DNA from: Halomicroarcula saliterrae
GTDB taxonomy: Archaea; Halobacteriota; Halobacteria; Halobacteriales; Haloarculaceae
Assembly: GCF_031624395.1 (NCBI RefSeq)
Contig: NZ_JAMQON010000001.1
Coordinates: 1,054,001-1,118,000 of the forward strand
Direction of reading: 5' to 3'
Length of the DNA stretch: 64,000 nucleotides
This document shows positions 15,882-20,653 of the stretch, in pieces (position 1 is the first letter of the stretch; each line of letters opens with the position of its first letter). Below the pieces are notes generated by a model. That model was not told the origin of the DNA, ran no database searches, and saw nothing but the letters and a program-made list of their open reading frames with translations. Made by a program: the position numbers and the translations under genes.

Positions 15882-15950
15882 TGGGGTCGGAGGGAGTATT
15901 CACCCGACTGCGAGACTCACTGCGTTCGTCTCGCGTGGTTCAAATCCTCC
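15882..15950. repeat. Degenerate copy of the tRNA-Trp 3' end with a palindromic core
   Basis: 15882-15907 matches the complement of the tRNA-Trp 3' end at 15994-16020 (tggggtcggaggga then a decayed T arm). It is followed by a perfect 7-bp stem (GCGAGAC 15910-15916, GTCTCGC 15928-15934) and then the T-arm sequence in the opposite sense (GGTTCAAATCC, 15937-15947). The rest of 15499-15993 holds only the gene remnant and AT-rich DNA. Confidence 0.6.
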
Positions 15951-15993
15951 GCGAGACATTTCTGTCGCTCACGGATTTGTTCGCGACAAGAAA

Positions 15994-16174
15994 TGGGGTC
16001 GGAGGGATTTGAACCCCCGATCGGCTGATATCTCCGTCCAGCGCCTCGGAACTCCAGAGGGTCATCGTCGCGGAACCGATGATCAGTCGGCCGCTCAGTA
16101 TATCAGCCCTCGGATGTCGTCCCTGGCGCGTGGCCTCTGGAGTCAGCCGCCTTCCCGGACTAGGCCACGACCCC
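15994..16174 (-). tRNA. tRNA-Trp (CCA) with 107-nt intron
   Basis: The minus strand gives a 74-nt mature tRNA from exon 1 (16137-16174) and exon 2 (15994-16029). The acceptor stem GGGGTCG pairs with CGACCCC, followed by discriminator A. The anticodon loop C-T-C-C-A-G-A reads tryptophan codon UGG (anticodon at 16138-16140). The intron sits between positions 37 and 38, the standard archaeal site cut by the bulge-helix-bulge endonuclease. CCA is not encoded. A TATA-like tttactatc lies about 20-30 nt upstream (about 16193-16203). Confidence 0.95.
16030..16136 (-). ncRNA. tRNA-Trp intron carrying two 2'-O-methylation guides
   Basis: The intron holds two antisense guides to its own pre-tRNA. CTCTGGAGTT (16050-16059) is followed by the box-D-like CCGA (16046-16049), and its fifth nucleotide before that box pairs with C34 of the anticodon. 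GGCTGATATA (16099-16108) is followed by CTGA (16095-16098), and its fifth nucleotide pairs with U39. A box-C-like ATGA is at 16062-16065. This matches the known haloarchaeal box C/D intron that directs Cm34 and Um39. Confidence 0.85.
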
Positions 16175-16568: not shown

Positions 16569-16732
16569 CCGCCAGAAAGTCCCGCCCGTAGCCGGCTGGT
16601 CATACAGCGCTGGGTGGGACTGAAAGGGGCGGCTGGCTCCGGGAAGGCGGCTGACGCAAGCACTGCAACGAACGCAGTGAGCGAAGCGCGCAGCGAAGCC
16701 CCCGACTGGAGCCAGCCGGGGCTTTCTGGCGG
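16569..16732. repeat. Large palindromic intergenic element
   Basis: Outer arms ccgccagaaag (16569-16579) and ctttctggcgg (16722-16732) are perfect complements. Inside, ggctggctcc (16631-16640) pairs perfectly with ggagccagcc (16707-16716), while the overlapping ccagccgg (16712-16719) can pair with ccggctgg (16592-16599). A small hairpin CACTGC/GCAGTG is at 16661-16679. It fills most of 16446-16817, where no gene is convincing. The derived open frame (VGLKGAAGSGKAADAS...) looks like the false ORF such elements often give in haloarchaea. Confidence 0.6.
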
Positions 16733-16817
16733 GACACGCTGTTATACTCGAAAGTGGATCGAATAGATTTTTAGCGGCCACCAGCCCCGCTCTCGCTACA
16801 AAAACCGGTTTTTATTC

Positions 16818-20376: not shown

Positions 20377-20579
20377 CGGGCCGGAAGGGATTTGAACCAC
20401 GGTCGGAGCAAGCTCCTCCCTGATTCAAACCCTACTGTTGTTTCCACTGCTCACTGTCGTTCACAGGGAAACGGGCCGGAAGGGATTTGAACCACCTGCA
20501 CTTCGCTCGCTACCGCTCGCTCGTGCCATCGTTCAAATCCTACTGTTGTTTTCACTGCTCACTGTCGTTCGCAGGAAAG
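20377..20579. repeat. Two tandem degenerate tRNA-Lys 3'-end units
   Basis: Units at 20377-20471 and 20472-20579 each start with the complement of the tRNA-Lys acceptor and T arm (cgggccggaagggatttgaa, as at 20580). A self-complementary core follows, then an opposite-sense T-arm-like ttcaaa, then a copy of the tRNA 3' flank (tactgttgttt...gaaa, 38-39 nt). They fill the gap between the small membrane protein and the tRNA, which holds no gene. Confidence 0.75.
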
Positions 20580-20653
20580 CGGGCCGGAAGGGATTTGAAC
20601 CCTCGACCGACGGCTTAAGAGGCCGTCGCTCTGCCAGACTGAGCTACCGGCCC
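20580..20653 (-). tRNA. tRNA-Lys (CTT)
   Basis: A 74-nt cloverleaf on the minus strand. Acceptor GGGCCGG pairs with CCGGCCC with discriminator G. The D stem is GCTC/GAGC, and the anticodon stem ACGGC/GCCGT encloses loop C-T-C-T-T-A-A (anticodon CTT). The T arm contains GGTTCAAATCC. There is no intron and no encoded CCA. A TATA element (gtatata on the minus strand) sits at 20680-20688. Confidence 0.96.

Follow-up and report, generated by a model that had tools for sequence, protein, structure and literature searches.

Gene-free hairpin units behind tRNA genes of Halobacteriales as candidate mobile cassettes

Directly behind its tRNA-Lys(CTT) gene, Halomicroarcula saliterrae carries the end of that tRNA twice more, with hairpins in between, and the locus raises the question of what makes such copies. 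We examined it within a stretch of 64,000 nucleotides (contig NZ_JAMQON010000001.1, positions 1,054,001 to 1,118,000), here called the window, and across related genomes. At roughly even odds (about 0.5), we read the units as a Halobacteriales family of mobile cassettes, small and without genes, whose insertion at the 3' end of a tRNA would leave the gene intact, since the tRNA sequence running from T54 to the discriminator forms the end of, or is duplicated by, each cassette.

Units behind tRNA-Lys(CTT) and behind other tRNA genes

The original prediction for this locus, made from the letters alone, held that two units beside tRNA-Lys repeat the tRNA tail and that their edges are conserved while their cores differ. 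Both points are borne out, as a repeat search found a 70-nt direct repeat (93%) and a 32-nt stretch of T-arm, acceptor, and flank in three copies, and the edges of the larger hairpin, HP2, agree between units 1 and 2 while its cores differ. The reversed T-arm motif that had been described is also present, but it is the reverse complement of T54 to C62 and forms the 5' strand of HP2, and an extra hairpin, HP1, precedes it. The parts of the locus are as follows.

20580..20653, minus strand: tRNA-Lys(CTT) gene (ARAGORN, Rfam), discriminator base at 20580; the copied segment is T54 onward
20472..20579, minus strand: unit 1, 108 nt, consisting of HP1, linker, HP2, and tRNA-tail copy
20550..20578, minus strand: HP1 of unit 1, hairpin TTTCCTGC-GA-AC-GACA-GT-GA-GCAG-T-GAAA adjoining the discriminator, from sequence and fold
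20532..20540, minus strand: inverted arm (R'') of unit 1, GGATTTGAA, complement of the T-arm TTCAAATCC
20483..20540, minus strand: HP2 of unit 1, R'', then the core GCAC(GA)GC(GA)GC[GGTA]GC(GA)GC(GAA)GTGC, then GG TTCAAATCC
20472..20491, minus strand: tail copy 1, TTCAAATCCCTTCCGGCCCG, T54 to discriminator, identical to the tRNA
20377..20471, minus strand: unit 2, 95 nt, with the HP1 type of unit 1 and a different HP2 type (TCAGGGAGGAGCTTGCTCCGACCGTGG)
20388..20432, minus strand: HP2 of unit 2, with inverted arm GGGTTTGAA, one G.T wobble against TTCAAATCC
20377..20396, minus strand: tail copy 2, identical to the tRNA tail

Read along the tRNA strand, each unit begins with HP1 at the discriminator and continues through a short linker into HP2. 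The 5' strand of HP2 starts as the reverse complement of T-arm positions 54 to 62, and its 3' strand is supplied by the T-arm copy itself. What remains of the T-stem then follows with the acceptor 3' strand, so that the copied piece, T54 to the discriminator, measures about 20 nt. The search also returned an inverted repeat, 20388-20413 with 20515-20540, and besides the arm/tail pairing it gave no inverted repeat joining the unit ends at this locus, such as the transposon-related terminal repeats that mark a MITE. ARAGORN called a single tRNA in the window, Lys(ctt) at 20653-20579 on the minus strand, with the gene end placed at 20580 by Rfam. Only two tRNAs attain the gathering score in the Rfam scan of the window, in which the units have no match.

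The second of these tRNAs carries a unit as well:

15994..16174, minus strand: intron-containing tRNA, identified as tRNA-Trp by comparison with relatives (Rfam RF00005, 46.7 bits; missed by ARAGORN at default settings)
15882..15993, minus strand: single unit behind tRNA-Trp, with HP1, HP2 (GGATTTGAACCACGCGAGACGAACGCAGTGAGTCTCGCAGTCGGGTG..), an acceptor-end copy CTCCCTCCGACCCC, and a decayed T-loop, by sequence

The same tRNA-Trp gene lies beside tRNA-Lys in four loci of relatives (L119-L122), where ARAGORN run with introns calls Trp(cca), and a tRNA-Trp unit with the same arrangement was found in one relative.

When the genome was searched with the locus, the layout also appeared behind tRNA-Leu(TAG), tRNA-Leu(GAG) (two units), and tRNA-Lys(TTT) (damaged). 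For a survey of the whole genome we began with 58 listed tRNA matches and left out 14 in one tight cluster as well as three ARAGORN intron predictions judged spurious; the count rests on the 43 others that ARAGORN re-found in their loci. A gene was scored positive when one or more copies of its own 20-nt tail, each carrying no more than 3 changes, lay 600 nt or less away (two flanks being shorter than 300 nt), and by this rule own-tail copies lie behind 14 of these 43 nonclustered genes: Lys-CTT, Leu-TAG, Leu-GAG, Arg-TCT, Gly-CCC, Gly-GCC, Val-TAC, Arg-CCG, Tyr, Val-CAC, Arg-TCG, Leu-CAA, Gln-TTG, and Arg-GCG. Foreign tRNA tails, differing at more than 6 of 20 positions, were found in 86 of 4174 flank comparisons. 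The excluded cluster (C1:884102-887987) packs fourteen tRNA genes of unusual sequence into 4 kb, resembling a virus-borne tRNA cluster, and holds no tail unit, the sole match there being a neighboring tRNA. As a separate observation, the T-arm copy behind tRNA-Lys(TTT) (L002, ~1684-1739) is split by about 55 bp containing two more hairpins, as if hit by another insertion, and a similar stretch occurs behind tRNA-Gly(CCC).

Across genomes we searched for the pattern GGATTNGAA-N30-60-GGTTCNAATCC, using the same pattern read backwards as a control, and found it in 33 of 41 genomes, including that of the window. Restriction to one clade is evident in an even sample of the phylum (294 genomes), in which the pattern occurred in 47 of the 53 genomes belonging, like that of the window, to Halobacteriales versus 1 of 241 others, and the backward pattern gave 0; the sole positive outside the order (G203) has 2 matches. 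The units are likewise specific to tRNA genes. Once 33 backward palindrome readings had been set aside, 95 of 98 matches, in 84 loci, had a tRNA on the same strand within 700 nt upstream, and of the remaining three, two lie behind a tRNA-Gly whose 5' half is missing; the third (L044) does not represent this element. The inserts are gene-free, 180 of 182 being 260 bp or shorter and most 70 to 140 bp. These counts confirm that the layout is a general feature of Halobacteriales tRNA 3' flanks and not a one-off; the original prediction had named its absence from other tRNA flanks among the grounds for giving it up, and its presence at many of them clearly removes that objection. We located no earlier description of the units in the full-text literature searched, a body in which subscription journals are mostly outside coverage.

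Arm matching, covariation, and the type of fold

The inverted arm tracks the T-loop of its own tRNA. With the two units with inserts above 260 bp left out, the arm matched its own tRNA's nine bases with at most 2 mismatches in 160 of 180 units, versus 13 when the query was reversed and 16 when the inserts were shuffled. Because some loci had been fetched by pattern, we recounted units not chosen that way, which came from the survey of the window's genome and from orthologues of tRNA-Lys, and the arm matched in 41 of 45. The fourth T-loop base is informative in its own right, since the search pattern left it free on both sides: behind TTCAAATCC tails (n=115) the arm has T in 100 cases, C in 10, and a tie in 5, and behind TTCGAATCC tails (n=59) it has C in 53, T in 2, and a tie in 4. 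Pairing of the arm spans tail positions 1 to 9, fades at 10 and 11, and is at background level beyond. Departures in the arm lean toward changes that keep a wobble pair, with A-to-G at 29/482 versus G-to-A at 7/482 and T-to-C at 8/425.

The remainder of HP2 is paired and covaries, as judged by pair counting on typed alignments. In HP2 family C (14 sequences), 96.8% of cells are paired and 8 pairs have changed on both sides; the values for family A (12 sequences) are 99.0% and 5 pairs. For both families, 0 of 500 shuffles reach the observed pairing, and slid registers drop to 8 to 51% paired, figures that are inflated in that the sequences are related and the p-values overstate independence. 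Family labels A to E were assigned by rough regular expressions, which left 52 of 165 hairpins as "other." Compensatory changes of this type could also stem from template switching, to which we return below.

Whether the hairpins are built to fold as RNA or as DNA bears on what the units are. Folded as RNA, both window units were better than all 200 dinucleotide shuffles (z of -3.55 and -3.17). Folded as DNA on the tRNA-sense strand, they stood only modestly above shuffles (z of -2.33 and -1.80, with 4/200 and 8/200 shuffles as good). The original prediction expected a T-arm-like hairpin; HP2 is larger than a T-arm, with 9 to 11 outer pairs and a variable core. The stems have an unusual build, in which Watson-Crick steps and tandem GA/GA mismatches take turns up to a loop with a C-G closing pair. 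Loops, extent of pairing, and strand folding were compared over the 156 to 157 units whose arm had no more than 2 mismatches and whose spacing was plausible. Counting loops flanked by GA-RC and GY-GA, we found GNNA or GNAB in 38 of 39 loops of four bases, with GNRA in 1 of 39 and TTCG in none, and GNA in 73 of 108 loops of three bases. GNA loops are exceptionally stable in DNA, and Nakano and colleagues are said to have found in 2002 that cGNNAg and cGNABg loops are as well. This fit to DNA-stable motifs is the main reason why we think that selection has favored folding of the units in the form of single-stranded DNA and not of RNA.

The best-surviving rival explanation, which we nonetheless consider unlikely, is a resident RNA element, in which HP1 and HP2 are transcribed behind the tRNA and serve in termination, in 3'-end processing, or as stable trailer RNAs, while copies reach other tRNA loci through unequal crossing over and gene conversion. 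Such an element would fit units that always lie on the tRNA sense strand, their strong RNA folding (z of -3.2 to -3.6), covariation with G.U-type wobbles, and the T-run with which HP1 frequently opens at the tRNA end. It would also fit the better folding of the HP2 sense strand than the antisense strand, in 115 of 148 cases with RNA parameters and in 103 of 148 with DNA parameters. Against it stand the DNA-type loops, the 29 of 43 tRNA genes of the genome that are without a unit by the cutoff used, and the finding that close relatives carry 0, 1, 2, or 3 units at one tRNA, unlike a needed processing signal. The suggestion of a tRNA-tail-mimicking RNA element was the weaker half of the original prediction, given loops that match motifs stable in DNA and not in RNA. 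Should the units prove to be resident RNA elements after all, a structured trailer specific to tRNA genes throughout an order would still be a surprise.

Turnover of whole units and cores shared between tRNAs

To follow units at a single site, we compared the tRNA-Lys(CTT) loci of congeners, 30 of which were kept out of 32 genomes with a match. They contain 0 to 3 clear units each, with decayed units farther out, and the units combine a few recurring HP1 and HP2 types in various ways. Pairs of genomes differ by the presence or absence of whole units with exact junctions at the tail copies. The window genome exceeds G002 by 108 bp, exactly unit 1 (96/107 identical beyond); G146 exceeds G003 by 111 bp (192/202 identical beyond); and G018 exceeds G005 by 112 bp (187/200 identical beyond). 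All three steps begin at the tRNA end, which is where the step search looked for differences, and the shared flank resumes right behind the tail copy.

We infer from this that units are gained by insertion and not just lost, although the pattern of presence and absence could instead reflect loss via recombination between tail copies. Loss of that kind also occurs or is possible, since G011 and G018 differ by one internal unit, a difference that led us to drop the idea that insertion always adjoins the tRNA. In 38 arrays with at least 2 copies, the more diverged tail copy was distal in 18, proximal in 4, and equal in 16.

Cores are also shared between tRNAs of different isotypes. One HP2 core, matched as an exact 47-base pattern, was found in Haloarcula mannanilytica (tRNA-Leu), Haloprofundus marisrubri (tRNA-Gly), and Halobacteria archaeon HArc-gm2 (tRNA-Asp), each copy carrying the tail and the inverted arm of its own tRNA. 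The earlier proposal of repeated integration and excision gains from these common cores, from the clean-edged presence and absence of whole units, and from the restriction to tRNA 3' flanks. It fares less well in that the usual integrase-bearing virus or plasmid was not seen and the inserts are gene-free and mostly 70 to 140 bp.

The near-identical core families behind different tRNAs of different genera also bear on the view that replication template switching at quasi-palindromes near tRNA genes makes inverted copies and keeps correcting them, with no dedicated machinery. Template switching would account, without selection, for both arms that match the local T-arm and compensatory stem changes, but it leaves these core families unaccounted for, along with the GNA, GNNA, and GNAB loops and the restriction to one order, and we hold it to be improbable. 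The cassette reading has a gap of its own, as the match of the arm to a newly occupied tRNA is unexplained by it.

The cassette reading, candidate enzymes, and known systems

If the units are mobile cassettes, their movement might run as follows. The tRNA-sense strand of a unit, folded on itself, would be excised or copied, with HP2 serving as a hairpin attachment site that has an outer inverted arm and tail arm, an asymmetric unpaired internal loop, and a variable terminal stem. The tRNA gene would act as the receiving site, in a relationship like that of attC to attI, and would be cut at G53|T54, where all copies begin. Joining would place the unit between the tRNA body and the old tail, so that the tRNA would regain a full 3' end and the old tail would end the unit. 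A tyrosine recombinase acting in trans may carry out these steps; we propose it because, of three enzyme classes checked in 25 relatives, it is the sole one found in every relative.

The enzyme survey favors a tyrosine recombinase, or general recombination, only weakly, because the broad family by which it was scored, PF00589, is everywhere (25/25 relatives and also 14/14 control genomes). Cas1 (PF01867) is present in 8 of the 25 relatives, including the window's genome, and the Y1 transposase (PF01797) in 15 of 25. Six genomes with pattern matches (G001, G004, G005, G014, G027, and G028) have neither Y1 nor Cas1.

The closest working likeness for such a mechanism is with integron cassettes. 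Their attC sites are imperfect hairpins with complementary edges, extrahelical bases, a variable end, and one better-folding strand, with an R box consensus of GTTRRRY / RYYYAAC, and older cassettes sit distally. Here, too, the units are tandem, and an imperfect palindrome with complementary edges and a variable center, HP2, closes each of them as the putative site of recombination. The likeness extends to unpaired internal bases, a strand that folds better than the other, copies that start at a G|TT step, and a tendency of older units to sit farther from the receiving site. Unlike integron cassettes, the units have a tRNA gene as receiving site and are without genes (180/182 inserts of 260 bp or less), and the unit arm, G-TTCRAATCC, departs from the attC R box in having C as its fourth base.

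Casposons target tRNA 3' ends. Casposons and CRISPR adaptation resemble our units in that the target is duplicated with each insertion, beside a fixed leader, and single-stranded ends are substrates (PMC6614799). The units differ in that their inserts form one structured family and not arbitrary spacers, and Cas1 is missing from 17 of 25 relatives, among them G001, G002, G004, and G005, which have pattern matches.

The nearest haloarchaeal precedent for hairpin-ended, gene-free repeats is that of the PATEs of Haloquadratum walsbyi and IS605-type elements. As described in PMC3119063, these share with our units a haloarchaeal host, the lack of genes, near-terminal palindromes, and, in our reading, a single-strand route; PATEs are also without terminal inverted repeats. 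HP1 and HP2 likewise provide near-terminal palindromes with no transposase gene. A further explanation follows from this precedent, namely, IS200/IS605-type single-strand transposition by a Y1 enzyme of a tRNA-aimed relative of the PATEs, with the inverted arm as guide. The two subterminal hairpins, the lack of genes, and the single-strand asymmetry speak for it, as does the abundance of PATEs and IS605-type elements in haloarchaea (PMC3119063). We nevertheless rate it a long shot, since Y1, the mobilizing transposase, is missing from the window's genome and from 9 others of the 25, several of them with units, and the hairpin motif is rare around Y1 genes (5 in 96.7 kb). Moreover, PATEs are by definition without target duplication and are not tRNA bound in what we drew from their description (PMC3119063), whereas about 20 bp of tRNA stands at each unit end here.

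Archaeal integrases at tRNA genes are well described, and this layout is absent from the portion of the description that we consulted (PMC8371274). The elements covered there use the 3' part of a tRNA as attachment site and restore the tRNA, as the duplicated tRNA 3' segment does here, but they hold an integrase and kilobases of genes (PMC8371274), whereas our units are about 100 bp, too short for an integrase gene, contain two hairpins, and are often tandem. That the units are scars of ordinary viruses or plasmids of this type, each running from attL to attR with its interior deleted, fits the data poorly already and earns little credence from us: integration at tRNA genes usually leaves a duplicated tRNA 3' end as its mark (PMC8371274), and partial tRNA copies at haloarchaeal prophages have been published (PMC3119063), but the insert sizes cluster (most 70 to 140 bp), a common anatomy of two hairpins and an inverted arm is not expected of deletions, and no long version with the same ends turned up, the 4.5- to 5.6-kb candidates being tRNA-Trp genes.

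Those candidates were tail-like matches 4.5 to 5.6 kb downstream of tRNA-Lys in four relatives, and their identity as intron-containing tRNA-Trp genes led us to reject them as a gene-bearing version. No autonomous, gene-bearing unit was found, including in phage, plasmid, and viral collections. Matches in phages and plasmids cover tRNA bodies only, and of 46 stretches from the viral scan, none shows the haloarchaeal GA/GNA hairpin style by eye, so that carriage by any of the three was rejected. Some GC-rich viral contigs (L138, L145, L150, L152, L163, and L168) do contain near-perfect palindromes, GGGGCATGGATTTGAACC...GGTTCAAATCCATGCCCC; these consist of two inverted tRNA-like ends and are unlike the haloarchaeal units.

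Returning to mobile cassettes, the units would be a new variety of small, nonautonomous mobile DNA, with a real chance of a new kind of mechanism. Halobacteriales tRNA genes would then receive mobile DNA too small for genes, with hairpin loops apparently selected for single-stranded DNA folding, and recombination of folded strands, best known from integrons and IS200/IS605, would extend to a tRNA-based archaeal system. A simple genetic marker of recent insertion would follow, along with a testable recombinase substrate of about 110 bases in a genetically tractable group. More tentatively, the units may belong to an order-wide, gene-free, integron-like system, with single-stranded hairpin cassettes, tRNA genes as receiving sites, a tail regenerated per insertion, a built-in nine-base complement of the target, and a resident recombinase working in trans. 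Were that so, past insertions would be recorded in tRNA tails, which might also serve as decoys and so keep viral integration away from the tRNA genes.

The hairpin style itself is wider than the tRNA units. A mini-hairpin motif, GARCGNAGYGAG, occurs 122 times in the genome versus 47 for its reversed control; up to 400 nt behind tRNAs it is found 34 times in sense versus 5 in antisense orientation (25.8 kb), and 700 to 1500 nt behind them it is found 3 times in 49 kb. We had considered it exclusive to tRNA tails and rejected this, as other intergenic clusters exist. Clusters of hairpins with GA mismatches and GNA loops lie away from tRNAs at L263-L265 and L285-L288 (C1:48.9 kb and C1:574.1 kb of the same genome). 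In the window, at 16600-16745, an element of the form TGGGACTGAAAGGGG...AAGCACTGNAACGAACGCAGTGAGCGAAGCGCGCAGCGA...GGGGCTTTCTGG surrounds an GAACGCAGTGAG hairpin at 16669. It recurs with variation at least 4 more times in the genome (L262, L272, L279, and L280) and could represent either a small RNA or a repeat resembling IS605/PATE elements.
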